A stretch of DNA of 22,996 nt from a virus. The position numbers and the translations under genes were made by a program. The notes under the pieces were generated by a model. It worked only from the letters and a program-made list of their open reading frames with translations, searched no databases and had not been told where the DNA came from. Of the stretch, positions 2 to 22,965 are shown piece after piece. The stretch covers positions 1 through 22,996 of the IMG/VR virus record IMGVR_UViG_3300018055_000012; one strand, given 5' to 3'. Position 1 is the first letter of the stretch, and each line of letters starts with the position of its first letter.

Positions 2-37
2 CTACGTGCATCTTTTGCCTATGTGAATTATGCCTGA
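2..37 (+). CDS. Possible 3' end of an upstream gene (small terminase?)
   Basis: Frame 2 is open from the window edge and ends at a TGA at 35-37, reading LRASFAYVNYA. This would overlap the large terminase start by 8 nt, in the style of the other junctions here. Another frame ends at 24-26, so the assignment is uncertain. A small terminase is expected immediately upstream of the large one, which is the only support for the product name. Confidence 0.25.
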   Translation, partial: LRASFAYVNYA

Positions 38-1643
38 CGCCGTCGTCGTCCCATTGAAACGTGATCGGCGAGGGGGCTGGAACCGGAACGCACCGACCCG
101 TCACGATGGCGCCATAGCGAAACCGTTACCATCGAGAAATCCGATTCGGTTCATCAACCGCCTCACGCATACGAAAGGCGCCTTCGGGGGTCAAACATTC
201 AAGCTGCGCCGCTGGCAGGTGCGCATCCTCAAGAAACTGTTCAAAAAGAGAAGCGACGGGCTGCGGCAGTACCGCACGTGCCTGTTGATGCTGCCGCGCA
301 AGAACGGCAAGACGGAGCTCGCGGCGGCGATTGCGCTCTATGGGCTGCTGGCCGATGGCGAGATGGGCGCGGAGGTGTATTCAGCGGCCTCCGACCGGGA
401 TCAGGCCGGTCTGGTTTTCGCCGTGGCTGCCCAGATGGTCAGGAACGATCCGAAGTTGGACGCGGCCTGCTACATCGTCGAATCCCAGAAAAAGATCGTC
501 CATCGGAAGAGCGGCAGCTTTTACCGGGCGATCTCGGCCGACGCGTACAGCAAGCACGGTTTCAATGCGTCGATGGTCATCTATGACGAGCTCCACGCCG
601 CGCCAGATCGCCGACTGTACGACGTGCTGTCGACATCGATGGGCGCCAGGCGACAGCCGCTGCTGCTCGTGATTTCGACCGCCGGCTACGATCGCCATTC
701 GATTCTCTGGGAGCTGTACGCGCACGCGAAGAAGGTGCAGGAGCGGCCCGCGATGGACCCCTCGTTCCTCCCGATTCTCTACGAGGCGCCCGATGGGGCC
801 GACTGGACGAAACGGCGCGTCTGGCAGCAGGCCAACCCGGCGCTCGGGGACTTCCGGTCGCTCGAGGAGATGCAGATTCTCGCGTCACGGGCCATGCAGA
901 TTCCCGCGCAGGAAAACAACTTCCGCCGGCTGTATCTGAACCAGTGGACCGAGCAAGCCTCGCGCTGGATTCCGCTGTCGGCCTGGGACGCCTGCCTGGC
1001 GCCGATCGTGCGGGCGAGCCTGGCCGGCCGGCGCTGCTACGTCGGGATGGACCTGAGCACGACGACCGACCTGACGGCCCTCGTGGCGGTCTTTCCCGAC
1101 GAGCTCGGCTTCGACGTCCTGGCCCAGTTCTTCGTGCCCGAGGAGCGGATCCTGGAACGGTCCCGGCGGGATCACGTCCCGTATGACGAGTGGGCGCGGC
1201 AGGGGTTCCTGACGGCGACGCCTGGCGCGGTCGTCGATTACGACATCTTGCGCCAGGTCCTGCGACAATGGGCCGCGGAGTTTGCCCTGCAGATGGTCGC
1301 CTTCGACCCGTGGAACGCCACCGACATGGTCTCGCGCCTGCAGCAGCAGGACGGGCTGGCCTGCGTTTCGATGCGCCAGGGCTTCGCGTCGCTCTCGGCG
1401 CCGACCAAGTCGCTCGAGGGGGCGATCCTCGGCCGCCGGCTGCGCCACGATGGACATCCGGTCCTGCGCTGGAATATCAGCAACGTCGCCGTCGAGACCG
1501 ACTCGGCGGGCAACATCCGCCCGCACAAGACGCTCTCGACCGAGCGTATCGACGGCGTCGTCGCCCTCATCATGGCGGTCGACCTGATGAACCGCCAGGC
1601 GGCGGCCGCGGCGCCGAGCTACCAGATGCTGGTCGTCGGATGA
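30..1643 (+). CDS. terL: Terminase large subunit (HK97/Terminase_1 type)
   Basis: This is the ATPase-nuclease motor that packages DNA into the prohead. The 537 aa length is normal for the family. Visible motifs are a Walker A-like loop LPRKNGKT (residues 88-95), Walker B MVIYDE (182-187, with acidic D186-E187), the coupling motif ISTAGY (215-220), and nuclease-domain acidic residues around D341 (GMDLS), D426 (FDPWN) and D509 (RIDGV). The N-terminal 35 residues are basic and poorly structured. The stop overlaps the next start. It is followed by capsid and portal genes, as in HK97-like siphophages. The ATG at 30 has no strong ribosome binding site and is probably translated by coupling to the preceding gene. 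Confidence 0.96.
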   Translation: MPDAVVVPLKRDRRGGWNRNAPTRHDGAIAKPLPSRNPIRFINRLTHTKGAFGGQTFKLRRWQVRILKKLFKKRSDGLRQYRTCLLMLPRKNGKTELAAAIALYGLLADGEMGAEVYSAASDRDQAGLVFAVAAQMVRNDPKLDAACYIVESQKKIVHRKSGSFYRAISADAYSKHGFNASMVIYDELHAAPDRRLYDVLSTSMGARRQPLLLVISTAGYDRHSILWELYAHAKKVQERPAMDPSFLPILYEAPDGADWTKRRVWQQANPALGDFRSLEEMQILASRAMQIPAQENNFRRLYLNQWTEQASRWIPLSAWDACLAPIVRASLAGRRCYVGMDLSTTTDLTALVAVFPDELGFDVLAQFFVPEERILERSRRDHVPYDEWARQGFLTATPGAVVDYDILRQVLRQWAAEFALQMVAFDPWNATDMVSRLQQQDGLACVSMRQGFASLSAPTKSLEGAILGRRLRHDGHPVLRWNISNVAVETDSAGNIRPHKTLSTERIDGVVALIMAVDLMNRQAAAAAPSYQMLVVG

Positions 1644-1816
1644 AGCGCCCCGGCCGGCCCCCACTCGCCCGCGATGATGCCTCGGTGGCGATGAGTTTCC
1701 GTATGCCCGCCAAACAGTACGACCTGGCCCAGAAGCAGGCCACCGAGGCGAGAATGTCGCTCTCGGAGTGGTTACGGCGCGTCGTCACACGGACCGTGCG
1801 CGAGCGGTCGCGCTGA
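1640..1816 (+). CDS. Small ribbon-helix-helix-like DNA-binding protein
   Basis: This 58 aa gene starts at the ATG overlapping the terminase stop (ATGA). A much longer frame starting at 1190 runs through the terminase gene and is not credible. The protein has a basic, proline-containing N-terminus, then a short strand (residues 17-21, AMSFR), a helix (PAKQYDLAQKQATEA), a turn and a second helix (SLSEWLRRVVTRTV). This layout matches Arc/CopG ribbon-helix-helix proteins. The likely role is DNA binding, perhaps regulating or assisting late functions; its partner and target are unknown. No regulatory site was recognised beside it. Confidence 0.7.
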   Translation: MKRPGRPPLARDDASVAMSFRMPAKQYDLAQKQATEARMSLSEWLRRVVTRTVRERSR

Positions 1817-1846
1817 CGGGTTGTGCACCCGCCCTGTCACACGGGG
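1817..1846 (+). other. Two small adjacent hairpins upstream of the capsid gene
   Basis: CGGGT and ACCCG (1817-1831) form a 5-bp stem. A 6-bp stem with one wobble pair (1832-1846) follows directly. There is no T run, so these do not look like a terminator. They lie in the only 84-nt gap between the terminase-side genes and the capsid gene, and could act at the RNA level or be chance in GC-rich DNA. Confidence 0.25.
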
Positions 1847-1900
1847 TTCTGAACACAGAAATCAGCCGGCGCGCCTGGAACGCGATGAACTACCTGGGCC

Positions 1901-3742
1901 GTGGAACGGGCGTACGCACTCCTCGAGGTCAAGACGGTCGAACCGTCGCGCCGGATGATCACCGGCATCGCCTCGACGCCCGAGGTCGACCGCCAGGGCG
2001 ACATCTTCGACCCGGCCGGCGCCACGTTCCGTAATCCCGTCCCGCTCCTGCTCCATCACGACACCGAGCGGCCGATCGGGACCGCGCATCTCTCGGTCAC
2101 CCCCGCCGGCATCACGTTTGATGCGACCTTTCCGAGCGTTGACGAGGCCGGCCCGCTCAAGGCGCGCATCGATGATGCCTGGCAGTGCCTCAAGGCCGGC
2201 GTCATCTCGGGCGCCTCGATTGGCTTTCGCGTCCTCGATGGCGGTGTGCAGTACCTCAAGGGCGGCGCCCGCAAGCTCGTCAAAACGGAGATCTGCGAGC
2301 TGTCGCTCGTCACGATTCCATCCAACGCCAGCGCAACCATTCGCCTCGTGAAGTCACTCGCGGCGCCGCGCCGCATGGAGCAACCTATGAAGCCGACGAT
2401 CTCGGAGCACATTCAGAACCTGGAAAACAAGGGCGCGGCGGTGGAGAGGCGGATGGCTGAGATCATGGAAACCACCGCCGTCGACGGGCAAACGCTACAG
2501 CCCGACCTGGCCGCGGAGTATGACGGCCTGGCGCTCGAGCTGAAGAGCATTGATGCCGATCTGGGCCGCTGGCGCGACCTCGAGAACCTGCAGATCAGGG
2601 CCGCCGTGCCGGTCCCGGCCTCGCCGGTGCTCCGGCCCTATCCCGTGATTTCTGTGAAGTCCAACTTGCCGCTGGGAACGGCGTTCATCCGCGCGGCCTG
2701 CGCGAAGCTGATCACCAAGGGCACGGACGTCAGCGCGGTCGCCTACGCGGAAGATCGCTGGAAGGATTCGCCGGAGGTCGCGCTGTACCTCAAAGCCGCC
2801 GTGGCGCCTGGGACGATCACGGATGCGACCTGGGCGGCGCCGCTGGTCAACCAGAACATCGCCAACGAGTTCATCGAACTGCTGCGGCCGGCCACGATCT
2901 TGGGCAAGATCCCAGGGTTCATCCAGGTACCGTTCAATACGAAGGTATCCGGGCAGACGGCTGGTGGCACGTACGGCTGGGTGGGTGAGGCGAAGCCCAA
3001 GCCTGTCAGCAAGCTCGCGTTTTCCTCCACGTCGCTGGGGATCGCGAAGGCCGCCGGCATTATCGTCATCACGCAAGAGCTCGCGCGGCTGTCTTCCCCG
3101 AGTGCCGAGGCCCGCGTACGTGATGACATGGTGAAGGGGATCGCGCAATTCCTCGATGCGCAGTTTATCGATCCGGCCGTCGCGGCGGTCGCGGGCGTCA
3201 ATCCGGCGTCGATCACGAATGGCGCGCCGACCGCGGCGGCCACCACGAACCCGCTCGCCGACCTCATCAGCCTGATTGCGCACTTCACCGCGAACAACAT
3301 CGCCGTCGGCGGCGTGACGTTCATCATGTCGGCGTCGAACGCGCTCTCGTTGTCGTTCCGCACAAACCTGGACGGGTCGCCTGAATTCCCCGGCATCACG
3401 GTCGACGGCGGCACATACAAGGGCCTCACGTTCATCACGAGCCAGGCGGCTGGCGCCAACGTCATCGCGCTGCAGCCGGGGCTGATTCTCTACGCGGACG
3501 ATGGCGGCGTCACCATCGACGCCTCACAAGAGGCGTCGGTGCAAATGGATAGCGCGCCGGCGTCGCCGGCCGATGCGACCACGGTGTACGTCTCGCTCTG
3601 GCAGACCAACATGATCGGCCTGCGCGCCGAGCGGTACATCAACTGGCAGAAGACCAACGCCAACGCGGTCAAGTACCTGACGGCGACCGCCTGGCCCGCG
3701 CCGACTGGCGCCGAACCGCCAGCCGCGCGCAGCAAGGGCTAA
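1901..3742 (+). CDS. Prohead protease fused to HK97-fold major capsid protein
   Basis: One 613 aa frame carries two proteins normally encoded separately. Residues 1-155 form a U35-type prohead protease: LLHHD (His52/53), ISGASIGF with the likely nucleophile Ser104, and the ELSLVTIPSNASA block (132-145). Residues from about 165 form the capsid protein: a helical scaffold-like delta region to about 235, then the HK97 fold. The protease normally removes the delta region during maturation. The GTG at 1901 has no good ribosome binding site. No stop codon separates the halves, and an internal ATG at 2387 is preceded by GGAG, so free capsid protein may also be made. Confidence 0.92.
   Translation: MERAYALLEVKTVEPSRRMITGIASTPEVDRQGDIFDPAGATFRNPVPLLLHHDTERPIGTAHLSVTPAGITFDATFPSVDEAGPLKARIDDAWQCLKAGVISGASIGFRVLDGGVQYLKGGARKLVKTEICELSLVTIPSNASATIRLVKSLAAPRRMEQPMKPTISEHIQNLENKGAAVERRMAEIMETTAVDGQTLQPDLAAEYDGLALELKSIDADLGRWRDLENLQIRAAVPVPASPVLRPYPVISVKSNLPLGTAFIRAACAKLITKGTDVSAVAYAEDRWKDSPEVALYLKAAVAPGTITDATWAAPLVNQNIANEFIELLRPATILGKIPGFIQVPFNTKVSGQTAGGTYGWVGEAKPKPVSKLAFSSTSLGIAKAAGIIVITQELARLSSPSAEARVRDDMVKGIAQFLDAQFIDPAVAAVAGVNPASITNGAPTAAATTNPLADLISLIAHFTANNIAVGGVTFIMSASNALSLSFRTNLDGSPEFPGITVDGGTYKGLTFITSQAAGANVIALQPGLILYADDGGVTIDASQEASVQMDSAPASPADATTVYVSLWQTNMIGLRAERYINWQKTNANAVKYLTATAWPAPTGAEPPAARSKG
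2377..2389 (+). promoter_or_regulatory. Internal ribosome binding site and start for capsid protein
   Basis: GGAG at 2377-2380, a 6-nt spacer and ATG at 2387-2389 lie in frame inside the protease-capsid gene, at the domain boundary (residue 163, MKPTISEH). Initiation here would give a 451 aa capsid protein, supplying many capsid subunits per protease. This is inferred from sequence spacing only. Confidence 0.5.
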
Positions 3743-3747
3743 GCCGC

Positions 3748-5061
3748 GTGGGCGTGCTCGCGTCGATCCGCTCGTCGCTACGCGCGGTCTTCGCCCCTGG
3801 CGCGTCATCGCCAGCCGGGGGCGCAGGCGCCTGGATGCCGATTGTCCACGAGCCCTATACCGGCGCCTGGCAGAAGAACGACGAGCTCCGGCTCGAGACG
3901 GCCCTCGGCAATCCGACCGTCTTTCGCTGCGTGTCGCTCATCGCTTCCGATATCGGGAAGCTACCGCTGCGGCTCGTCGCCGTCGATGCCAATGGAATTT
4001 GGCACGAGACGACGAGCCCGGCGTTCTCGCCGGTGCTGCGCGTGCCGAATCGCTACCAGACGCCGCAACAGTTCTTCGAAGTCTGGATGTTCAGCAAGCT
4101 GCTCTGGGGCAACACCTACGTGCTGAAGGATCGCGACCAGCGCGGCGTCGTCACGGCGCTCTACGTGCTCGACCCGTGCCGCGTGAAGCCGCTCGTCGCG
4201 CCCGATGGCAGCGTCTACTACGAGCTCCAGACCAACGACCTGGCCGGGATCCCGAACGCGGGCGGCCAGGTAGTCGCGCCCGCCAAGGAAATCATTCACG
4301 ACCGCTGGAACTGTGCCTTCCATCCGCTGGTCGGCCTCTCGCCGCTCTACGCCTGCGGCGGGGCCGCCAGTCAAAGCCTCGCGATGCAAGCGTCCAGCAC
4401 GGCCTTCTTCTCGGGCGGTGGCCGGCCGAGTGGGATGCTGACGCCGCCGGCCGGGGCGCCGTCGATGGACCAGAAGACCATCGAGCGCATCAGCGAGAAG
4501 TGGAACAACCTTGGGTCGAATCGGACGGCCATCCTCGGCGACTTCCTGAAGTACGAGCCGATCGGCAGTTCTGCGGCCGACTCGCAATGGATCGATCAGA
4601 TGGGCTGGACGGCCAAGACGATCGCGGGCTGTTTCGGCGTGCCGATCTCGATGGTCGACTCGAGCCAGCAGCCGCCGTACGCGAACAATGAAGCCTCGAC
4701 GCTGCAGTATCACTCGCAGTGCCTGCAGACGCACCTGACGGCCATCGAGGGCGCGCTCGATGGCGGGCTCGAGCTCCCGGCGCCCTACGGGACCGAGTTC
4801 GACCTGGACGACCTGATCTGGATGGACACGGCGACCAAGACGAAGGCCGCGCACGATGCGATCAGCGCCGGCGCGATGTCGCCGAATGAAGCGCGCCTCA
4901 AGTACTTCGGGCTCGGCCCGGTGCCGGGCGGCGACTCGCCGTACCTCCAGCAGCAGTACTACTCGCTCGAATCGCTCGCCATGCGGGATCTGGGTGTCCC
5001 GGCGCCGCCGGCGGCCCCCCTGCCGGCGGTCGTCGCGGCGCCCGCGGAGAGCCAGCCGTGA
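3748..5061 (+). CDS. Portal protein (HK97 family)
   Basis: The dodecameric portal forms the DNA entry vertex and joins head to tail. The 437 aa length is typical of the HK97 portal family. Recognisable blocks include NPTVFRCVSLIASDIGKLPL (55-74), a family hallmark, the WGNTYVL segment, HDRWNCAFHPLVGLSPLY, and FGVPISMVD near residue 310. The C-terminal 25 residues are Ala/Pro-rich and likely disordered. The GTG start lies 5 nt after the capsid stop. The stop overlaps the next gene. The position between capsid and connector genes is usual for this portal, although the portal often precedes the protease; here the protease-capsid fusion comes first. Confidence 0.95.
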   Translation: MGVLASIRSSLRAVFAPGASSPAGGAGAWMPIVHEPYTGAWQKNDELRLETALGNPTVFRCVSLIASDIGKLPLRLVAVDANGIWHETTSPAFSPVLRVPNRYQTPQQFFEVWMFSKLLWGNTYVLKDRDQRGVVTALYVLDPCRVKPLVAPDGSVYYELQTNDLAGIPNAGGQVVAPAKEIIHDRWNCAFHPLVGLSPLYACGGAASQSLAMQASSTAFFSGGGRPSGMLTPPAGAPSMDQKTIERISEKWNNLGSNRTAILGDFLKYEPIGSSAADSQWIDQMGWTAKTIAGCFGVPISMVDSSQQPPYANNEASTLQYHSQCLQTHLTAIEGALDGGLELPAPYGTEFDLDDLIWMDTATKTKAAHDAISAGAMSPNEARLKYFGLGPVPGGDSPYLQQQYYSLESLAMRDLGVPAPPAAPLPAVVAAPAESQP

Positions 5062-7579: not shown

Positions 7580-10513
7580 ATGGCCCTTTCCGCAACGTTC
7601 ACCGCGAACTTCTCCAGCTTCTACGATGCTGTCGCGAAGGCCGACGCCCAACTGAAGGACTTCGGCGAGGGCGCCGACAAGGTCGGCGGCCGCCTGAATA
7701 CCCTGGCGAATCAGTTCACCGGCAAGAAAATCATTCAGGAAGCCACGCTGATGGCGAAGGCCGTCGAGGACATCGGCGGTACCTCGATGCTCACCGAGAG
7801 GGAGCTCGGACGGCTCGGCGCCACGGCGAGCGAGGCGGTCGCGAAGATGAAGGCGCTCGGGATGGAAGTCCCGAAGAACCTCCAGGAGATCGCCGACAAG
7901 ACCAAGAACGCCAATCAGGCCACGAGCGACTGGACGGGCTCGCTCGTGAAGGTGGCCGGCGCGATCGGGATCGCGTTCTCGGTCGATGCCATCAAGGGGT
8001 TCATCGGCAGCGTGTTTGATGCCGCGAGCGCGGTCAAGGACCTCTCGGATCAGTGGGGCGTGTCGACGACGGCCGTCCAGCAGTGGACCGGCGCCGCGAA
8101 GGCCAGCGGCGTCGAGGCCGAGACCGTCGGGAAGTCCGTCCAGTTCCTGACCGAGCAACTCGGCGACGGGTCGGATGCCTACCAGGCGCTCCTGAAGAAT
8201 GTCGGCCTCTCGTACGACGAGCTCCGGAAGATGCCGCTCGAGGACGCGTACAAGCAAGTCGTCGCGGCCATCGGCGGCATCAAGGACGAGACGCTGCAGC
8301 TCGACATCGCCCAGGGCCTGCTCGGGACGAGCTCCAAGAAGATGGTCGGCGCGATTCGTGATGGTTTCCTCGAGGCCGCCGACGCGCAGAAGGTGATGAG
8401 CGACGAGACGATCAAGCGACTCGAGGCCGCGCAGGCGTCCTGGGAACGGTTCACGAACGCCGTCATCGTCTACTCGGGCGAGGCCCTCGCCGCCGTCATG
8501 GACGACACGAAGCGGATGACGAGCTCCTGGGGGAACTTCTTCCGGTACCTCAACGCCGCGGCCCAGGGCGCGGGCGCCGTCGCGATGCTCATCGAGCAGG
8601 ACAAGGCCCTCGAGAAGACGAACCAGACCATGAAGGCCACTGTCTCGACGACCGAGACCTTCACCGTCGCCGGCACGAAGATGGAGAGCGGCCTCAAGAC
8701 GACCGCCCAGGTGCTCGAGGAGGGCCGCAAGAAGACCGAGGCCCTGAAGACGGCGGAGCAGCGGCGCACCCAGGCGCAGGAGGCGGCCAAGAAGGCGCAG
8801 GAGGACTACACCAAAGGGCTCGCCTCGCAGAATCAAAAACTGCTCGACCTGGTGAACACGTTCGAAGGGCGCGACCTGATCGGCAAGGCCAACCTCTACC
8901 TCGAGGCGCTGAAGGATTCCATCCCCGTCCAGACGATGACGGCCGAGCAGCAGGCCAACATCAACAAGGTGATGGTCGACGCGATCAAGGTGTACGACGC
9001 CGCCGGCGAAGAGGCGCCGCAAGCGCTGTACGACATGTGGGCGGCGACCGTGAAGGCCGACCAGGCGACGGTCCAGTACGCCGAGGACCTGAGCAAGCTG
9101 AAAGCGCCGCCGATCAGTTTCGACCTGCCGAACCTCGGCCCGGGCATCAAGATGGGCCTGCCGCCGCCGACAGAGCTCGAGCAGTGGAACAAATCCGTCC
9201 ACGAGCTCGCGGGCGCGTTTGCGCAGCTCGCGCAGATCAGCGACGGGGCGTTCAGCGACATCGCCCAGGACATCGGGACCCTGATCGGCGCGATGGATCT
9301 GGCGGGCAAGTCGACCAAGACCTTTCAGACCGGCATCGCCAGTTTCAAGGCGGGCAATCTCACGCAGGGCTTCGCGCAGAGCGCGGCGGGCGCGGCGGGC
9401 GTGATCAGCTCATTTCAGAGCGCCACCAAGGAAACGGGCAAGCTGCAAAGCACGCTCAACGGCGCGGCGATTGGTTTCTCGGTCGCCGGGCCCTGGGGCG
9501 CGGCCGTCGGCGCCGGCATCGGGCTGCTCAAGGGCTTCCTGAATGCCGCGAAAGCCGCGAGAGAAGTCCGGAACCTGCGCGACGACTTCCTCGCGGCCGC
9601 CGGCGGCGCCGAGGAATTGCGGGACCGCGCCTATCAGGCTGGGGTGAGTCTGGACGACCTCTATGCGGCGAAAAAGAAAGGGGACCTCGAAGCGGCCATC
9701 AAGGACATCAACGCGGCGTTCAAGTACCAAGAGGACGCGCTGAACATGGTCACCGAGGCCGCGCAGCGGTACGGCTTCACGCTCGAGGAGCTCGGGCCGG
9801 CGCTCCAGCGCCAGGAGCTCGACAAGCAGGCGCAGCAACTCTACAAAGACTTCGAACTGCTCACGAGCGCCGGCATCGACTCGATCGCCGTCAACGAACG
9901 GATGAGCGAGGCCGTCAGCAAGTACGTTCAGGACGCCAAGAAGATGGGGCTCGAAGTCCCCGAAGCCATGCGTCCGATGCTCGAGACGTTCGCGAAGTCC
10001 GGCACGCTCCTAGACGAAAACGGGAACGCCATCACCGACCTCGAGGACGCGGGCCTCTCATTTTCGATGACGATGTCCGAGGGCTTCAAGAAGCTCATCG
10101 AGCAGGTCGAGAAGCTCACCGACGTCATCTCGAAAACACTAACCGGTGCGATCAATGACATTCCGCCGGTCCAGGTGCCAGTCCCGGGTGTGAACGTACC
10201 CTACAACTACCGCGACAAGCGGGAGTACCCGAGTTATCAGGAGGGCACGGACGGCTTCCGGAATTTCGGGACCGGCACGCCCGTCATGCTGCACGGCTGG
10301 GAAGCGGTCGTGCCGCGCGAGGAGTCGGGCGCCTTCGCCACCGTGGCGGCCGCGCCCATGATGGCCGCGGTCGCGGCGCCGGGCCCCACGATTGTCATCA
10401 ACGCCCAGGGCGCGCTCTTCGACTCGCCCAGCGACCTGCAGCGGCTGGCCGATCGCGTCAATGACGCGCTCACGGCGAAGTACGGCATCCGCAACGCCAT
10501 GCGGGCGGGATAG
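7580..10513 (+). CDS. Tail tape measure protein
   Basis: At 977 aa this is the longest gene of the window and sets tail length. The sequence is mainly helical with many Ala, Lys, Glu and Gln residues. Hydrophobic segments at about 123-145 and 627-653 are typical for tape measures that insert in the host membrane. Residues 240-600 carry long coiled-coil stretches. The C-terminus contains YQEGTDGFRNFGTGTPVMLHG followed by WEAVVPREE, the widely shared end motif of tape measures. It starts 1 nt after the chaperone extension. Using roughly 0.15 nm per residue, the tail would be near 145 nm; that is a family rule of thumb, not a measurement. Confidence 0.93.
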   Translation: MALSATFTANFSSFYDAVAKADAQLKDFGEGADKVGGRLNTLANQFTGKKIIQEATLMAKAVEDIGGTSMLTERELGRLGATASEAVAKMKALGMEVPKNLQEIADKTKNANQATSDWTGSLVKVAGAIGIAFSVDAIKGFIGSVFDAASAVKDLSDQWGVSTTAVQQWTGAAKASGVEAETVGKSVQFLTEQLGDGSDAYQALLKNVGLSYDELRKMPLEDAYKQVVAAIGGIKDETLQLDIAQGLLGTSSKKMVGAIRDGFLEAADAQKVMSDETIKRLEAAQASWERFTNAVIVYSGEALAAVMDDTKRMTSSWGNFFRYLNAAAQGAGAVAMLIEQDKALEKTNQTMKATVSTTETFTVAGTKMESGLKTTAQVLEEGRKKTEALKTAEQRRTQAQEAAKKAQEDYTKGLASQNQKLLDLVNTFEGRDLIGKANLYLEALKDSIPVQTMTAEQQANINKVMVDAIKVYDAAGEEAPQALYDMWAATVKADQATVQYAEDLSKLKAPPISFDLPNLGPGIKMGLPPPTELEQWNKSVHELAGAFAQLAQISDGAFSDIAQDIGTLIGAMDLAGKSTKTFQTGIASFKAGNLTQGFAQSAAGAAGVISSFQSATKETGKLQSTLNGAAIGFSVAGPWGAAVGAGIGLLKGFLNAAKAAREVRNLRDDFLAAAGGAEELRDRAYQAGVSLDDLYAAKKKGDLEAAIKDINAAFKYQEDALNMVTEAAQRYGFTLEELGPALQRQELDKQAQQLYKDFELLTSAGIDSIAVNERMSEAVSKYVQDAKKMGLEVPEAMRPMLETFAKSGTLLDENGNAITDLEDAGLSFSMTMSEGFKKLIEQVEKLTDVISKTLTGAINDIPPVQVPVPGVNVPYNYRDKREYPSYQEGTDGFRNFGTGTPVMLHGWEAVVPREESGAFATVAAAPMMAAVAAPGPTIVINAQGALFDSPSDLQRLADRVNDALTAKYGIRNAMRAG

Positions 10514-13273: not shown

Positions 13274-13320
13274 TGGTGGACGGCGCGAGGCTCGAACTCG
13301 CGACCTCTGCGTTGCGAACG
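13274..13320 (-). other. attP core: 3' part of tRNA-Ala(CGC)
   Basis: Read on the minus strand this is the 3' part of a tRNA. The anticodon loop is TTCGCAA (13318-13312, anticodon CGC), the T stem GCGAG pairs with CTCGC around a TTCGAGC loop, and the acceptor strand GCCGTCC is followed by discriminator A and CCA (13276-13274). A U at position 70 and A73 agree with alanine identity. Pairing of the anticodon stem breaks at position 29, so only about 47 nt are tRNA. On integration it would rebuild the 3' end of the host tRNA-Ala gene. Confidence 0.8.
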
Positions 13321-13390
13321 GGGAGCTAATTACGTTTTCCCTAACGTTTTGAGCGGTTTTTGAGGGTGCGTGAACAGATCGTGAATGGGA

Positions 13391-13618
13391 TCAGGGCTTT
13401 ATGTCGATGATCGGTTCACCGCGCGTCTCGGTGGCGCCGCCGTTGATCGTGATCTTGAACGTACGGCCATCGGTCGGAAACGACTCGACATACCCCGTAT
13501 TCAAGTTGTCCCGATGAACAATGCCGACGGCAGAGTCGATTTCCACCGTCCGTGCGGCAACGAGCGTTCTACGCAACGTAGCCAATAGGATCTCGATGTC
13601 AGCCTCAGTCAGTTTCAT
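13391..13618 (-). CDS. Small protein of unknown function beside attP
   Basis: A 75 aa protein starting at ATG 13618, sharing its A with the integrase stop (TGATG), so it is coupled to the integrase. A longer frame from 14032 lies inside the integrase and is not used. The N-terminal half is helical (TEADIEILLATLRRTLVAAR) and the C-terminal half beta-rich (GRTFKITINGGATETR). I do not recognise a family. Being the last gene of the lysogeny operon next to attP, a role in integration or excision is possible but unproven. Confidence 0.65.
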   Translation of the reverse strand: MKLTEADIEILLATLRRTLVAARTVEIDSAVGIVHRDNLNTGYVESFPTDGRTFKITINGGATETRGEPIIDIKP

Positions 13619-14694
13619 CACGCCCTCTTTCTGAGCCGCGGCGCGCCGACCATCGCGAGCTGATCGTCTTGTCGGGCCTCCGCGTAGATCCGGAGCAGCA
13701 TCTCCGGGTGTTTCCAATTGCCCTGCTTCTGGACCGCGCTGATCGGCGCGCCCTTCTGGAGGAGGTACCGCGTGGCGCCGGTGCGGCGCGTCGCCCAGTG
13801 AAACGTCAGGCCGCCGTGCTTGCGGCCGTAGCGGAGGCCGGCCTTCTTGCAGAGGTACTCGAAGCGCTGGCGCACGGAGCCGACCCAGTCCCGCGGGTTT
13901 TCGGCGCGTCGGAACTTCGCGAAGTAGTACCGCTCCTCCGTCTTCTCGATCACCTTCAGGACGGCCAGGGCGCGGGGCGACAGGGCCGTCTCGTAGGCGT
14001 CCCCGCTCTTCGCGTGCTTGACGTACAGCCACTGGCCATCGTGCTCGCTCCGCTCGAGGTCGAGCAGGTCCCCGAGACGGATCATGGTATCGATCCCGAG
14101 GATGATGATCGCCTTGTCCTGGGCATCCTCCGCGACCTCGAGGAGTTTGTGCTCTTCGGCCGGCTGCAGCAGGCGCCGTTTGATGGGCGGCGCTTTCAGG
14201 CGCTTCAGGCCGACGATGGGCGAGGCCTCGAGGTACGGGCCGACCGCATCGCGCAGCATCCCTTTGAGGATGTCGATCTCCCGATTGATGGTCCGCGGGC
14301 CGCAGCCATCGGCGGTCCGGGCGGCCATGTAGGCCCGGACGCGATCGGCGTCGATGGCCGAGAGCAGCTCGGCGTCGAACGCCCGCCGGAGCGGCTTCAG
14401 CGCGTCGACTTCGCGCAAGGCACCCCGGCGGAGCGCGATGACGTCGCGGGCGTACCGTTCGGCATAGACGGCAAAGCGCACCATCGGCGGGCCGTTGGGC
14501 AGGCGGCGCACCTTCCGCTCGGCGATCTCGAGCATCCGGCGCTGATACGCCTCGACCGCGAGCGCCTTGTTGTCTTTTCTCTGGGTCGTCGTCTCGCCGA
14601 TGAGAATCTTGCTGCTCTCGCGCTGTTGCCCTTTCGGCGCGATCTCGAGATGCAGCCAGTAGTACGGCGAGTCGTCGCGGGTGAAGACGCTCAT
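13618..14694 (-). CDS. int: Tyrosine site-specific integrase
   Basis: This 358 aa tyrosine recombinase would integrate the phage at the tRNA-Ala site next to it. It has an N-terminal AP2-like/arm-binding part (residues 1-60), a SAM-like core-binding domain (about 70-165) and a catalytic domain. Likely catalytic residues are R206 (TMIRLGDLLDLE), K229 (KHAKSG), H299, R303, W327 (GNWKHP) and nucleophile Y337 (RIYAEA). The His-Arg box reads HWATRRTGAT, one residue longer between His and Arg than the usual HxxR. It follows the hypothetical gene by 1 nt on the same strand. Confidence 0.94.
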   Translation of the reverse strand: MSVFTRDDSPYYWLHLEIAPKGQQRESSKILIGETTTQRKDNKALAVEAYQRRMLEIAERKVRRLPNGPPMVRFAVYAERYARDVIALRRGALREVDALKPLRRAFDAELLSAIDADRVRAYMAARTADGCGPRTINREIDILKGMLRDAVGPYLEASPIVGLKRLKAPPIKRRLLQPAEEHKLLEVAEDAQDKAIIILGIDTMIRLGDLLDLERSEHDGQWLYVKHAKSGDAYETALSPRALAVLKVIEKTEERYYFAKFRRAENPRDWVGSVRQRFEYLCKKAGLRYGRKHGGLTFHWATRRTGATRYLLQKGAPISAVQKQGNWKHPEMLLRIYAEARQDDQLAMVGAPRLRKRA

Positions 14695-14973: not shown

Positions 14974-15549
14974 TCAAGATTTCTTCTTGGCCTGTGGCAC
15001 GACGCTGGGGAGGGTCGGCGCCTGGGTCGCGGGCGATTGGCCGTCGTCAGTGAGCGGGGCCAGCATCGTTTCCACGACGGCGATCTGCGATTCATCAAGG
15101 CGGATCAGGGCGCCCAAGATGAGGGCGATGTGTTCCCGCTGGTCTTCTGACAAGTCAGCCGTGAACAACGCCTTAACGGCGTGTTTGACTTCGGCCCCCG
15201 CGTGATGAAAGCGCTGCGCGAGCCGCAAATCCTCCTGCAATAAATCCTTCAAGAGGGGATCGGGGGTCTGGCCTGCCTCCGCATCGTCGGCGGTGAGCTG
15301 ATCGAAGGTCAGATCCATCGCCCGGGCGATCCGTTCTACCTGCTTCTTTCGCGTCTGGCGCATCTCCGTCTCGAAACCTTGGAGACAGCCCACCGAAATC
15401 CCGGCCTTGGCCGCGAATTGGACTTGACTCATGGCGCCGTGCTCCCGGCGCCATGCGATCACCCGTGCGGCCGCTTGGCGATACATCGCCTCATTGTCGG
15501 TGTCGTTCACGGAACGGTCAACGATCAGAAGGGGCTTAGTCCCGAACAC
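14974..15549 (-). CDS. Helix-turn-helix regulator, lysogeny repressor candidate
   Basis: This 191 aa protein has an XRE-type HTH at about residues 25-86 (MSQVQFAAKAGISVGCLQG then QVERIARAMDLTFDQL). The rest is helical and acidic with no LexA/CI-type autoprotease motif (no S24 Ser-Lys pair seen). It is the first gene of the minus-strand lysogeny operon and faces a second HTH gene across a short switch region, as repressor and Cro do. GTG 15549 is used here; ATG 15486 is an alternative that keeps the HTH. The absence of a cleavage domain suggests induction is not by RecA-stimulated self-cleavage. Confidence 0.7.
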   Translation of the reverse strand: MFGTKPLLIVDRSVNDTDNEAMYRQAAARVIAWRREHGAMSQVQFAAKAGISVGCLQGFETEMRQTRKKQVERIARAMDLTFDQLTADDAEAGQTPDPLLKDLLQEDLRLAQRFHHAGAEVKHAVKALFTADLSEDQREHIALILGALIRLDESQIAVVETMLAPLTDDGQSPATQAPTLPSVVPQAKKKS

Positions 15550-15571: not shown

Positions 15572-15587
15572 GTTGACACAAGTCAAC
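15572..15587. promoter_or_regulatory. Perfect operator-like inverted repeat
   Basis: GTTGAC at 15572-15577 and GTCAAC at 15582-15587 form a perfect 6+4+6 inverted repeat. It covers the -35 element of the rightward promoter. Related half-sites are AATTAACT (15563-15570) and the palindrome AGTTAACT (15610-15617). Binding of either divergent HTH protein here would block rightward transcription. Confidence 0.7.
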
Positions 15588-15600
15588 TTAGTTGTATATT
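15573..15600 (+). promoter_or_regulatory. Sigma-70-like early rightward promoter
   Basis: TTGACA at 15573-15578 and TATATT at 15595-15600, separated by 16 nt, form the clearest promoter in the window. Transcription would begin near 15607, leaving a leader of about 11 nt before the ATG at 15618, so the Cro-like mRNA is nearly leaderless. AGTTAACT overlaps this leader. Confidence 0.75.
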
Positions 15601-15617: not shown

Positions 15618-15845
15618 ATGTTGCTCAAATTGGCGCGCAAAGTCGCCGGGCTCACCCAGGGAGAGCTAGCCAAACAGGCTGGCGTCACCAAGTCGTTTAT
15701 TTCGCTGCTCGAGAGCGGCAAGCGCGACGTCCGGGCCGTGGGCTATGAAACGGTCGCGCGAATTGCCGAGGCGCTCGGCGTGAGCCCGCAGGAGTTGTTC
15801 CCGCTGGACGTCCGGAAATCCCATCGCACGAAGAGGCCGGCATGA
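15618..15845 (+). CDS. Cro-like XRE-family regulator
   Basis: A 75 aa protein that is almost entirely one HTH domain: LTQGELAKQAGVTKSFISLL at residues 12-31, then helices through IAEALGVSPQELF. The ATG at 15618 is chosen because the longer frame would start at 15573 inside the promoter, upstream of transcription. It is the first gene of the early rightward operon and faces the candidate repressor. It probably acts like Cro, or as a second repressor. The stop overlaps the start of the next gene. Confidence 0.85.
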   Translation: MLLKLARKVAGLTQGELAKQAGVTKSFISLLESGKRDVRAVGYETVARIAEALGVSPQELFPLDVRKSHRTKRPA

Positions 15846-16095: not shown

Positions 16096-16791
16096 ATGTG
16101 GGTGAAAGTCGATGACGGCTTCGTGGAGCATCCCAAAGTGATGGCCGCCGCGCGTCATCTCGGCGCGAATGGCGCGGGGCGCGTGGTGGCGGTGTGGCTC
16201 GAGGCGATCTGCTACGCGGCCCGGAATCTCACCGATGGGCTCGTGCCGATCCTGATCGCGCGGAAGTTCATCACGGACCGGCGCCCGCTCGATGTGCTCG
16301 ATGTCATGGCGATGCCCGATGTCCGGCTGATGACCAAGACCGACACCGGGTATCGGTTTCACGACTTCGAGCACTATCAGCCCTCCGCGGCGGCGGTGAA
16401 AGAGAAGCGTCAACGCGAACGGGAGCGGAAATCCACCAAAGTTCCGCACGGAATCCGCGCGGAATCCGCGCGGCAGATTCCCGGCGGAATCGCTACGGCT
16501 TCCGCGCGGATTCCAGAGCGCTCGCGCGCGCGCGATCCCGTCCCGTCCCCTAAAGAGCATAAGAAAGAGCAGTGCGCTGACGCGCACGCCGCGTCTACAC
16601 GGGTGCTGCTCAAACTCGCCCATGTGGTCCTCGACGACATCAGCGAGGACGCCGACGCGCCCCCTATCAGTGAACTGACCCATCGGCTCGGTGATACCGC
16701 CGCGCAGTACGGCATTCCCTATGCGACGGCACGCGAACTGACCAAGGCGATGGATTCGGCCGTGGCGCAACGGCGGCGGCGGGCCTCGTGA
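16096..16791 (+). CDS. Replication initiator-like protein
   Basis: A 231 aa protein with an N-terminal domain (1-98) opening MWVKVDDGFVEHPKVMAAAR, then WLEAICYAARNLTDGLVPI and YRFHDFEHYQPS, a combination found in phage replication-region proteins next to DnaD-like or primosomal domains. Residues 99-155 are a charged, low-complexity linker (KEKRQRERERK, then IRAESARQIPGG). The C-terminal part (about 170-231) is helical. The linker DNA contains a cluster of GGAATC/GATTCC repeats resembling origin iterons, as in lambda O. Initiation is inferred from neighbours and architecture, not from a recognised catalytic motif. Confidence 0.6.
   Translation: MWVKVDDGFVEHPKVMAAARHLGANGAGRVVAVWLEAICYAARNLTDGLVPILIARKFITDRRPLDVLDVMAMPDVRLMTKTDTGYRFHDFEHYQPSAAAVKEKRQRERERKSTKVPHGIRAESARQIPGGIATASARIPERSRARDPVPSPKEHKKEQCADAHAASTRVLLKLAHVVLDDISEDADAPPISELTHRLGDTAAQYGIPYATARELTKAMDSAVAQRRRRAS
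16442..16514. repeat. Iteron-like repeat cluster (origin candidate)
   Basis: GGAATC occurs at 16450, 16461 and 16486 and its reverse complement GATTCC at 16476 and 16509. GGAATCCGCGCGG is repeated at 16450-16462 and 16461-16473 and its exact inverse lies at 16502-16514. GATTCC and GGAATC also face each other at 16476-16491. A CG-alternating run and a purine/AT-rich stretch (16551-16570) follow, reminiscent of the lambda origin inside gene O. Confidence 0.6.
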
Positions 16792-17147
16792 TGGCGGCCA
16801 CCTGGAGGCTCGCCGTCATCGAGACGCGCTGCGGTGGCTGCTGCGGCGACGACGTGCACGGCCCGACCACGATTCCCGCCGGCGCGCTCGTGCTGGAGCT
16901 GCGCCTGCCTGGCGTGTCGCGGCCGAAGTACCGCTGCCAGACGTGCGGCGAGCCGTACCGGCCGCTTACGGACGCCGATCTGCGCCAGCTCCCGGCTTCG
17001 CCCGTGGAGACGCCCGCCCCGCGCGCGCCCGCGTCCGTCCGGCGGCTGCGCCTGGTGCGCGCGCCGCAGTCCTGGGCCTCGCTCGCCGAGTCCACCACCG
17101 GGCTCTTCGACCACGCGAAAGCCGCAGCAGGGGACCGAAATGAATAA
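16791..17147 (+). CDS. Zinc-ribbon-like protein in the replication operon
   Basis: A 118 aa protein starting at ATG 16791, one nucleotide overlapping the initiator stop (TGATG). Cysteines C14, C17/C18 and C49, C52 (CGGCC and CQTC) look like a split zinc-binding ribbon. The C-terminal half is Pro/Ala/Arg-rich and basic. It overlaps the annealing protein start by 8 nt. I do not recognise a family; nucleic-acid binding or a partner of the recombination proteins is a reasonable but unproven role. Confidence 0.65.
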
Positions 17148-18027
17148 CACAGCGCAACTTGCCACCGTGCCCGTGTCGTCCCTGACGACCGCGCCGTACA
17201 CCCGCGAGCAGATCGAGCTCATCAAGCGCCAGGTCGCCGTCGGCGTGACCGACGACGAGCTCAAGCTCTTTCTCTACCAGTGCCAGCGCACCGGCCTGGA
17301 CGCGCTCACGCGGCAGATCTACGCGATCAAGCGCGGCGGGAAGCTCTCGATCCAGACGGCGATCGATGGCTTCCGCCTCATCGCCCAGCGCACGGGCGAG
17401 TATCGCGGCCAGGCCGGCCCGTTCTGGTGCAGCGAGTCAGGCGCCTGGTCGGATGTCTGGCTCTCGAGTAGTCCGCCGGTGGCGGCCAAGGTCGGCGCCT
17501 GGCGGAAGGAGTTTGCTGAGCCGGTCTGGGGCGTGGCGCGGACCGACGCCTATGCGGCGCGGACCGAGAGCGGCCGGTTCGCCGGCCTCTGGCGGACGAT
17601 GCCGGACACGATGATCGCCAAGTGCGCGGAGGCGCTGGCCTTGCGCAAGGCCTTTCCGCAGGAGCTCTCCGGCCTCTACACCGGTGACGAAATGGCCCAG
17701 AGCGCCGTCGACCAGGACACCGGCGAGATCGTGGCCGAGACGCCGGCGGCGCCGCCCGATCTCCCGGCGGTCGCGCGTCCCGAGACGATCGAGGTGAAGG
17801 TCCTCGGCATCGTGAAGCGCCAGGTCAAGAACGGCTCCGAGAAGTTCGTCATCACGGGCGACAACCAGCAGACGTACCAGAGCTTCTCGGTGACGGTGGC
17901 GAAGAAGGCGAAAGAGGCGCAGGCCGCCGGCCTGCCGGTCCTGATCACCTACACCGACACGAAGTACGGCCGGATGATTTCACACCTGCGCGAGCGCGAC
18001 GACCCGCGCCCAGAACCACCGCTCTAA
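17140..18027 (+). CDS. bet: Bet/RecT-family ssDNA annealing protein with extra C-terminal domain
   Basis: A 295 aa protein. Residues 20-185 match the lambda Bet family: [40 protein letters not shown] and a later [20 protein letters not shown]. Bet anneals complementary single strands during phage recombination. Residues 215-285, after an Ala/Pro linker, contain [18 protein letters not shown] and [14 protein letters not shown], an OB-like beta pattern not part of lambda Bet. The ATG at 17140 has a GGGG-type upstream sequence; a longer frame from 16834 lies over the previous gene. No exonuclease or SSB gene is adjacent. Confidence 0.88.
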
Positions 18028-18039
18028 AGGGGAACTGCC

Positions 18040-18444
18040 ATGCGATCCTGTCTCGTCATCCTCGTCGCGCTCCTGGTCGCCGGCTGCCGGCCGACGACGA
18101 TCGTCCAGAACAATCTGCCCACGCAGCCGTCGGCGCCCACGGTCGTCAAACATACGATCCAGTTCCGCGTGAATGGCAACGCGACGAGCGTACGGGTCCG
18201 CTACTCGACGCCGATCGATGGGCTCGGCCAGGTCGTGACGTCGCTCCCGTACTTCAACACGCTCGTGGTCGCTGGGGATTCGCTCTTCTTGTCGCTCGAG
18301 GGGACGCCGATCAGTTACGGCTTCCAGGTGTTCTACCCGTTCTTCTCGGTCCAGATCGTCGTCGACAACGTGGTCTTTCGCGAAGCGACGACGCAGGACT
18401 TCCTGCTCGCGCCCTTGTCGGTCAGTGGGCAGTGGCGGCAATAG
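18040..18444 (+). CDS. Envelope lipoprotein, MmpS-like fold
   Basis: A 134 aa precursor with a short signal peptide and lipobox VAGC (residues 13-16); C16 would be lipidated and Arg follows at position 17. The mature part (about residues 38-125) is beta-rich, HTIQFRVNGNATSVRVRYS, then LPYFNTLVVAG and VQIVVDNVVFRE, resembling MmpS-like small membrane-associated proteins of bacteria. The gene sits within the early replication-recombination operon, 12 nt after bet, and overlaps the next gene. A cell-envelope role after infection or in lysogeny, such as superinfection exclusion, is inferred only from precedent in other phage lipoproteins. Confidence 0.78.
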   Translation: MRSCLVILVALLVAGCRPTTIVQNNLPTQPSAPTVVKHTIQFRVNGNATSVRVRYSTPIDGLGQVVTSLPYFNTLVVAGDSLFLSLEGTPISYGFQVFYPFFSVQIVVDNVVFREATTQDFLLAPLSVSGQWRQ

Positions 18445-18668
18445 TGGCGGCGCCGCTCCTCCCGAACCCGATCGCGTCGCTCATGCTGGAAGACCTGCGC
18501 CTCGCCGCGGATTATCTCGAGCAGGTCGGCGCCGGCGTGATGATCGACCCGGCGACCGCGCGCCGCCATGCGCTGCGTCTCTGGTCCGCGTCTCAAGGGG
18601 TCGAGCGTCTGCTGGTCGCGGTCGAGCAGCTCCTCGTCCAGGAGCGCGCCCGTCGGGGAGAGTCATGA
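18432..18668 (+). CDS. Small helical protein of unknown function
   Basis: A 78 aa protein starting at GTG 18432, overlapping the lipoprotein stop by 13 nt; GTG 18444 is an in-frame alternative giving 74 aa. The sequence SLMLEDLRLAADYLEQVGAG and LWSASQGVERLLVAVEQLLV indicates two or three helices. The stop overlaps the nuclease start (ATGA), implying coupling to it. No family is recognised. Confidence 0.6.
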   Translation: MAAIVAAPLLPNPIASLMLEDLRLAADYLEQVGAGVMIDPATARRHALRLWSASQGVERLLVAVEQLLVQERARRGES

Positions 18669-19069
18669 CGGCGAGCGATCGCGCAGCCTGGACGAAGCAA
18701 CTCAGCGACGGGCCCGTGGCACTTTGCGCAAACAAATACCACGCCCAGGTGTGCACCGTCGACGGGTTCCGGTTCGACTCGCGGAAGGAAGCGCGCCGCT
18801 ATGAACGCCTGAAGCTCTTGGTGGCCGCCGGCGAGATCCTCTGGCTCGAGCTACAACCGGAATTTCCGATCATCGTCCTCGAGCTGTATCGGGACGACGG
18901 GCGCCAGGTCGTCTGCGGGCGGTTTCGCGCGGACTTCCGGTACGTCGACGCGCACAGCGGGGAAGTCGTCATCGAGGACGCGAAGAGCCGGCCGACGAAA
19001 ACGACCGCGTACCGCCTGCGGAAGCGCCTGGTCGAAGCGATCCACGGCGTGACCATTCGGGAAGTGTAA
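18665..19069 (+). CDS. DUF1064-type PD-(D/E)XK nuclease
   Basis: A 134 aa protein starting at ATG 18665; a longer frame from 18425 runs over the previous gene. NKYHAQVCTVDGFRFDSRKE, then RRYERLKLLVAAGEI, LELQPEF, FRADFRYVD and VVIEDAKSRPTKTTAYRLRK are typical of DUF1064 phage proteins, related to small endonucleases/Holliday-junction resolvases. Candidate active residues are E42, D90, E104/D105 and K107. It likely works with the annealing protein in DNA processing and recombination. It overlaps the upstream gene in ATGA manner. Confidence 0.8.
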   Translation: MTASDRAAWTKQLSDGPVALCANKYHAQVCTVDGFRFDSRKEARRYERLKLLVAAGEILWLELQPEFPIIVLELYRDDGRQVVCGRFRADFRYVDAHSGEVVIEDAKSRPTKTTAYRLRKRLVEAIHGVTIREV

Positions 19070-19532: not shown

Positions 19533-20300
19533 ATGAAAAAAGCCGTGGTCATCCGGATCATCCCGATCGCTGCTGTGCTCGTCGGCCTTGCCGCGAGCGC
19601 CGCGGAGGGATCGGCGCTGCTCAATTTCCGAACCGGCACGACGTCGGTCCTCTGCGATACGCGCGTCGCGTTCTCGGCCGCCAACTGCGGCGCCGGGTAT
19701 ACGGTCGCCGGCGACACGATCGCGTACGTGGGCCCGATCGGGACGTGGCAGATCGACACGCTGGCTGTTACTTCAAGTAACACACCGGGAATCACGCCGA
19801 TCGGGAAGATCAATCTCGGGCTCGTCGATGTCCGGCACCTGGCCGGCACCGATGATCTCACCGTCGACTTCGGCCACGACGGATTCTCGGCGCCGACCGG
19901 GCCGAGTCTCTTCACAGCGACGGGGGCGGCGAGCTCCGATCAGGCGCTCGTCGGCGACCGGTCCTCACTCACCGGGTACGCTCGCGCCGCCAACGACCTG
20001 GCGCTCGTCCCCCCGACCAGCGCGACCGCGCTCGATCTGGTCACGCACCTCGCCGGCTGTACGCCCGCGGCGGGCCCGACGAAATCGTGCGCGATGGTGA
20101 GTCCGGCGGTGCCATTCACGACGACGGGGCCGTTCTATTCGCTCGCGGCGCGGGCGGTGATTCAGCAGCAGACGTCGACCGACATCCAATGGTCGTATCT
20201 CGAGAAAGCCGCCGTGCAACCCGTCCCGGAACCCGCGTCGATCCTCCTCCTAGCCGCGGGTCTGCTCGCGCTCGCGGCGCGCTGGCGGCGGGTGCACTGA
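19533..20300 (+). CDS. PEP-CTERM sorting-domain protein
   Basis: A 255 aa exported protein. Residues 1-27 form a signal peptide (MKKAVVIRIIPIAAVLVGLA with an Ala-rich cleavage region). The C-terminus has the complete PEP-CTERM signal: VPEP (PEP at 232-234), a hydrophobic helix (236-249) and a basic end RWRR. Such signals are cut by exosortase in hosts making exopolysaccharide-associated surface proteins. The middle is beta-rich and Ser/Thr/Gly-rich with several cysteines. AGGAG lies 8 nt before the ATG; stop and next start overlap (TGATG), so it belongs to the phage operon. An exosortase host is required for the expected processing. Confidence 0.88.
   Translation: MKKAVVIRIIPIAAVLVGLAASAAEGSALLNFRTGTTSVLCDTRVAFSAANCGAGYTVAGDTIAYVGPIGTWQIDTLAVTSSNTPGITPIGKINLGLVDVRHLAGTDDLTVDFGHDGFSAPTGPSLFTATGAASSDQALVGDRSSLTGYARAANDLALVPPTSATALDLVTHLAGCTPAAGPTKSCAMVSPAVPFTTTGPFYSLAARAVIQQQTSTDIQWSYLEKAAVQPVPEPASILLLAAGLLALAARWRRVH
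19766..19782. repeat. AT-rich 17-bp perfect palindrome
   Basis: TGTTACTT, a central C and AAGTAACA form an exact inverted repeat inside the PEP-CTERM gene. It encodes Val-Thr-Ser-Ser-Asn and stands out in GC-rich DNA. It could be an operator-like site for a regulator or chance; related half-sites are not obvious nearby. Confidence 0.35.
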
Positions 20301-20779
20301 TGGCCTTCGCGGAAAGCACGATCGTATCGGTCGAGAAATCGCGGGCCGAAATTGAGCGGCTCTTGATGCGCCATCGGTGCACGAAATTCATGTGCGGCAC
20401 CGACAACGAGCAACACCGCGCGACGGTGCAATTTCAAGCGAACAACCGGATCATCCGCTTCGAAATCGCGCTTCCTAATCCGGCGGACCCGGCCTACCGA
20501 AAGATGAAGAACAGCTATCTGCAGCGGTCGAGCGCGGGCATCACGAAGGTCGTCGAGCAAGCCAGCCGAACACGTTGGCGCGCGCTCCTCTTGGTCATCA
20601 AGGCGAAGCTCGAATCGATCGAAAGTGGGATCGCGACGTTCGAAGATGAGTTCCTCGCCCACATCGTTCTGCCGAATCAGCAAACCGTGGCCCAGTACAT
20701 CGCTCCCGCCGTCGCGCGGATGTACGAGACCGGGCTGATGCCGCCGGCCGACCGCCAGCTGACGAGCGGGGACGTATGA
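20300..20779 (+). CDS. Conserved phage protein of unknown function
   Basis: A 159 aa protein starting at ATG 20300, overlapping the PEP-CTERM stop. The segment RTRWRALLLVIKAKLESIES, then GIATFEDEFLAHIVLPNQQT and VAQYIAPAVARMYE, recurs in many siphophage early regions without assigned function. The N-terminus is basic and contains MRHRCTKFMCGTDNEQH. The stop overlaps the next gene. Its conservation suggests a real role in early infection or DNA metabolism. Confidence 0.72.
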   Translation: MAFAESTIVSVEKSRAEIERLLMRHRCTKFMCGTDNEQHRATVQFQANNRIIRFEIALPNPADPAYRKMKNSYLQRSSAGITKVVEQASRTRWRALLLVIKAKLESIESGIATFEDEFLAHIVLPNQQTVAQYIAPAVARMYETGLMPPADRQLTSGDV

Positions 20780-22633: not shown

Positions 22634-22965
22634 TGCCAACGCAAGCGCCCCACTTCTGCGTCGTGCCCGGCTGCTCGACCCTGACCGTGCGCCGCCGCTG
22701 CCTCGCCCACGCGGTCCAGACCGAACACGCGCGCCCGAACTACGCGGTCCGGCGCTGGTACCGCACCCCTCGATGGAAGGCGTTGCGCGCGCTCGTGCTG
22801 CGCGAGGCCGGCTACACCTGCGCCGGCTGCGGCAAGGTCGCGCTCGCGCTCGAGGTCGACCACATCACCAAGCACGAAGGAAATCCGGCGTTATTCTGGA
22901 ATCCCCAGAACCTGCAAGCGCTCTGTTCGCGCTGTCACATCGCGAAAACAAAACAGGGGGGGTAG
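22633..22965 (+). CDS. HNH endonuclease
   Basis: A 110 aa protein starting at ATG 22633. An N-terminal C-C-C-H cluster (C9, C14, C23, H26) is followed by a C63-C66 ... H77 ... N93 ... C98-C101-H102 pattern: YTCAGCGKV, VDHITKHEG, NPQNLQALCSRCH. This is the standard zinc-bound HNH nuclease of phage packaging modules, which acts with the terminase during DNA cleavage in HK97-like phages. It lies directly before a new gene start at 22970, consistent with a following small terminase. Confidence 0.9.
   Translation: MPTQAPHFCVVPGCSTLTVRRRCLAHAVQTEHARPNYAVRRWYRTPRWKALRALVLREAGYTCAGCGKVALALEVDHITKHEGNPALFWNPQNLQALCSRCHIAKTKQGG

Follow-up and report, generated by a model that had tools for sequence, protein, structure and literature searches.

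Many bacteria place proteins in their slime coat by means of the PEP-CTERM tag, and the exosortase substrates that carry it are matrix or surface proteins, for most of which it is unclear what each one does. What, then, is a protein bearing this tag doing among the putative early genes of a temperate phage, and by whose enzyme and to what end would it be sorted? The question is raised by a 22,996-base IMG/VR virus record (the window, meaning the whole stretch of DNA analysed), whose gene content is that of a temperate tailed phage.

The PEP-CTERM protein of the window

The argument draws on the following features of the window.

30 to 5061, plus strand: terminase large subunit, protease-capsid fusion and portal, establishing phage identity (profile search)
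7580 to 10513: long protein in tape-measure position, assigned by size and place only
13618 to 14694, minus strand: tyrosine integrase (PF00589)
14974 to 15549, minus strand: HTH repressor-like gene, pointing away from the early operon (PF01381)
15572 to 15587, no strand: operator-like palindrome GTTGACACAAGTCAAC over the -35 box
15573 to 15600, plus strand: putative early (PR-like) promoter, TTGACA-16-TATATT (11/12 consensus matches)
15618 to 15845, plus strand: Cro-like HTH gene, first in the early operon (HTH by eye)
17140 to 18027, plus strand: recT, early operon (PF03837)
18040 to 18444, plus strand: lipoprotein gene with predicted MmpS fold and lipobox Cys16, early operon
18668 to 19069, plus strand: Holliday junction resolvase-like/DUF1064 gene, early operon (phrog_190; PF06356)
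19533 to 20300, plus strand: PEP-CTERM protein gene, family A, 255 aa
19533 to 19613, plus strand: signal-peptide-like N-terminal segment, about residues 1-27 (hydrophobicity heuristic)
20220 to 20291, plus strand: PEP-CTERM tail, made up of PEP motif, hydrophobic helix and basic end (PF07589)
20300 to 20779, plus strand: phrog_17260 gene, in 1-nt overlap with the PEP-CTERM gene
22965, plus strand: HNH gene, at the end of the early plus-strand run

The reading frame of the PEP-CTERM gene agrees exactly with the first-pass annotation of this DNA, and the tail which that annotation had placed at its end is confirmed by two profiles above their curated cut-offs. The full PF07589 model aligns to residues 230-253 with 27.5 bits (Pfam cut-off 20.7), and TIGR02595 scores 19.4 in the protein search (cut-off 16) and 23.5 in a six-frame search. 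All three parts of the tail (PEP, hydrophobic helix, basic end) are present in PVPEPASILLLAAGLLALAARWRRVH, and PF07589 had no match in any of 14 control genomes. The N-terminus is strongly hydrophobic after KK, with residues 4-21 as the best 17-residue window of the hydropathy profile, and the orthologues are likewise hydrophobic there; between about residues 40 and 225 no stretch reaches transmembrane-level hydrophobicity, the 17-residue maximum in the middle being 0.96. The AF2 model is of low confidence (pLDDT 38), placing a helix at residues 3-21 and leaving the mature domain with no assigned fold, and a PDB sequence search with family A returned no match.

Conservation in related phages

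Scans of IMG/VR recovered four more phage contigs (G1-G4) encoding proteins 63-68% identical to that of the window, all with intact tails and PF07589 scores above cut-off. The gene is thus found in phage relatives, as the first-pass annotation had proposed to check, and an artefact of assembly is ruled out for the gene of the window. Within this family A, pairwise dN/dS ranges from 0.23 to 0.34, and the mean column identity of the mature domain is 81%. The closest phage to the window, G1 (L026; integrase 97%, TerL 85% identical), has the PEP-CTERM gene ahead of recT and behind a homologue of 16788-17147; in the window it stands directly before phrog_17260; and in G2-G4, where the window integrase finds no match, it lies behind a different small gene. 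Such a pattern, with the gene and its tail retained among varying neighbours, is what an accessory phage gene under selection should show. At the sensitivity of the scans made, family A homologues were found neither in named phages and plasmids nor in the genome collection.

Several observations concern the phages themselves. The contigs of the window and G1 both begin 29 nt upstream of the start of terminase, at what may be a genuine packaging end, and G1 continues for about 1.3 kb beyond HNH as compared with the window. The phrog_17260 protein is 94% identical in G2 and occurs also in mycobacteriophages and in Leptospira phage LE1; the 15 other phage records reached through phrog_17260 contain no PEP-CTERM match. 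Of the tRNA-Ala integration site suggested in the first-pass annotation, what stands is a resemblance, by eye, of positions 13277-13325 (minus strand) to the 3' part of a tRNA-Ala (CGC), a possible attP beside the integrase; neither ARAGORN nor Rfam confirmed the tRNA remnant, and a scan of the genome collection with the 42-nt tRNA-Ala-like attP pattern gave no matching genome.

Placement in a putative early operon

Between the cro-like gene at 15618 and the HNH gene at 22965, both included, every gene lies on the plus strand and no gap exceeds 50 nt. The description of the PEP-CTERM gene as embedded by gene overlaps holds on the downstream side, where it shares 1 nt with its neighbour (TGATG); upstream there is a 5-nt gap. 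Between 15400 and 20800 we find two plus-strand sigma-70-like matches with a common -35, judged by a consensus that may not be the host's, and no plus-strand terminator-like site. The better match, the only good plus-strand promoter, is located at the divergence of the repressor and cro-like genes and is overlain by the palindrome GTTGAC-ACAA-GTCAAC. The arrangement is what one would expect of an early, repressor-controlled operon, and with its sole good promoter at the switch, the PEP-CTERM gene far downstream is expected to be active chiefly in early infection or upon induction. A phage-borne PEP-CTERM protein in the early operon of a temperate phage, as originally claimed, is well supported. 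The change of the lysogen surface proposed along with it fares less well, given a gene so far down an operon behind the switch promoter; judged from gene order, expression in the course of infection is the better fit, compared with a change confined to lysogens. That the operon truly belongs to the phage is seen from a sister phage (L073; TerL 84%, capsid 84%, portal 87% identical to the window), in which a tail gene, the early operon and then terminase, capsid and portal follow one another on a single stretch.

PEP-CTERM tails in other phages

The sister phage L073 carries a different PEP-CTERM protein, family B, with a close relative in L075; the part that the L075 protein has in common with family A is the tail alone, about 26-28 residues. 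A further family B relative, 35% identical, is encoded in L093, an unrelated phage whose TerL has no significant match to that of the window. Across IMG/VR, a strict tail pattern occurs in 35 contigs, in about 30 of them within an ORF having a proper tail, and a second pattern (PEP[ST]T...) in 4 contigs. Phage context was checked for L053, L068, L092 and L093 among the strict-tail contigs, phages unrelated to that of the window, and in all four PF07589 scores above cut-off: the gene lies near TerL phrog_979 in L053 and within a RecE/RecT operon, with an integrase present, in L068, while L092 and L093 both have TerL phrog_979. The PEP-CTERM tail is common to otherwise unrelated phage proteins. 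Four contigs (L038, L039, L042, L054) encode one and the same PEP-CTERM protein among uncharacterised neighbours, in a region that could be of phage or host.

The lipoprotein of the operon

All five family A phages also encode the lipoprotein found at 18040-18444 of the window. Its Cys16 is invariant in six aligned sequences, within a lipobox (LVAGC) recognised by eye. The predicted structure (pLDDT 83.5) matches mycobacterial MmpS5 in Foldseek (9mvz, E 7e-6; 8em5, E 2e-4, TMt 0.76), and a weak profile match to MmpS5 is in line with this, so that an MmpS beta-sandwich fold is predicted for the protein. It differs from MmpS5 in being lipobox-anchored and at most 19% identical, and no MmpL partner was seen among the annotated genes of the window.

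Relatives of the lipoprotein occur on 27 IMG/VR contigs, and none was found in named phages. With the window counted in, a PEP-CTERM protein is encoded on 10 of 28 lipoprotein contigs. At least three kinds are represented: five contigs have family A, four (L073, L075, L093, L094) have family B, and the tenth is L092. The other 18, several of which are fragments, show no PEP-CTERM gene. Four of the 27 contigs also show the strict tail pattern, which is present in 35 of about 2.9 million contigs; the naive hypergeometric probability of this overlap is 3e-16, or 5e-8 when only two lineages are counted, both values being too small through their neglect of shared ancestry and shared hosts. For the same reason the co-occurrence is an association and not proof of partnership; as the 18 contigs show, the lipoprotein gene does not always come with a PEP-CTERM gene, and hosts in common may account for the pairing. 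We consider that the lipoprotein probably serves a purpose related to that of the PEP-CTERM protein. In L053, a lipoprotein-like gene unrelated to the window's (8374-8901) directly adjoins the PEP-CTERM gene, a further such pairing.

Discussion

Based on the collective evidence, the PEP-CTERM gene is probably best understood as an accessory gene of the phage, its product being an exported protein of the envelope sorted by the exosortase of the host. According to the model of Haft et al. (PMC1569441), EpsH acts on PEP-CTERM proteins at the periplasmic face, once they have been exported and while the tail retains them. The window protein resembles the substrates of this PEP-CTERM/exosortase system (PF07589, TIGR02595) in its hydrophobic N-terminus (a candidate signal peptide), the lack of a membrane segment between this and the tail, and the sequence of PEP, helix and basic tail, and shares with typical PEP-CTERM proteins a mature domain that has no known homologues; unlike in the EpsH system, its gene is phage-encoded and part of an early operon, with no exosortase or exopolysaccharide genes alongside. 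Exosortase (PF09721) was found in none of 12 phage records tested, and processing, if any, would thus be by a host enzyme.

A spanin or virion role was set aside, given that the gene appears to belong to the early operon and its product looks exported. Early placement in one operon with a lipoprotein gene suggests modification of the envelope during infection. From sequence and gene order, we infer export, processing and early timing, as well as a function in exclusion, along the following lines. The gene would be transcribed with the rest of the early operon (cro-like gene, recT, lipoprotein, resolvase), and its product exported by Sec and kept in the inner membrane by the tail. Host exosortase would then act at the PEP motif, with the effect that the beta-rich domain is released, or becomes attached to the cell surface or within the exopolysaccharide. 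Its most likely use would be to alter the envelope soon after infection, making adsorption or injection by incoming phages inefficient and sparing progeny from being wasted on debris. Superinfection exclusion as such is a possible role, on the unlikely side in our estimate. Among functional readings we would place superinfection exclusion or modification of receptor or matrix first, followed by lysogenic conversion and then by a decoy for the exosortase.

In lysogenic conversion, the protein would be made in lysogens and alter their surface or matrix (aggregation, biofilm) to the lysogen's benefit. The phage is temperate, with integrase and repressor; floc formation in some bacteria requires PEP-CTERM proteins (PMC9012009); and among the top NCBIfam scores for the whole protein is that of the flocculation protein PepA, far under cut-off and mostly via the tail. 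The gene is, however, inside the early operon, coupled to its neighbours and with no promoter-like site of its own, and while an unseen promoter could still drive it in lysogens, we hold this reading to be unlikely. Alternatively, abundant early PEP-CTERM protein could occupy the host exosortase, so that surface proteins or matrix of the host that stand in the way of the phage are displayed less. That families A and B have only the tail in common is as expected if the tail were the active part, but the conserved mature domain of family A and its purifying selection indicate that this domain matters too, and such a decoy seems to us distinctly improbable. Least credible of all is a host gene carried by chance as passenger DNA or through an assembly join: PEP-CTERM is otherwise a cellular signal, and in L038, L039, L042 and L054 the neighbours of the PEP gene are uncharacterised, but family A occurs in five distinct contigs, where selection acts on it and where it belongs to phage operons and is coupled to the phage genes there, it has no close cellular homologue in the genome collection, and the relatives refute the assembly version.

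Regarding precedent for the preferred accessory-gene reading, TIGR03118 exosortase-associated proteins figure in a tally of transferred genes on virus contigs from Yellowstone (PMC11003980). Judged by their description, these are, like ours, proteins on virus contigs with a putative exosortase-interaction end; what that study reports is a number for the family, and nothing on operon, conservation or function. Exclusion of other phages by a phage lipoprotein is known as well, from Lpp of the mEpimmI coliphages (PMC11893012). Lpp is, in common with the protein studied here, a phage-encoded exported envelope protein, and the window operon also has a lipoprotein; it differs in sequence, in its location in the structural gene cluster and in that no PEP-CTERM protein is described with it. 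Full-text searches, drawing largely on open-access papers, returned no description of phage PEP-CTERM operon genes. We see here a known tag on a new carrier and, probably, in a new use.

Lastly, the finding that several unrelated phages encode PEP-CTERM proteins suggests that phages use the surface-sorting machine of their hosts, and the repeated carriage, with the tail kept while the rest differs, suggests that exosortase sorting matters in the conflict between phage and host. Tentatively, and at somewhat less than even chances, phages of exosortase-bearing hosts may have repeatedly acquired exosortase substrates which, paired with an MmpS-fold lipoprotein, would form an early envelope-remodelling module that controls phage entry or the matrix by way of the host's own surface-sorting pathway. 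The phage PEP-CTERM genes offer compact test genes for PEP-CTERM protein function, and the tail could help to link uncultured phages to exosortase-bearing hosts.
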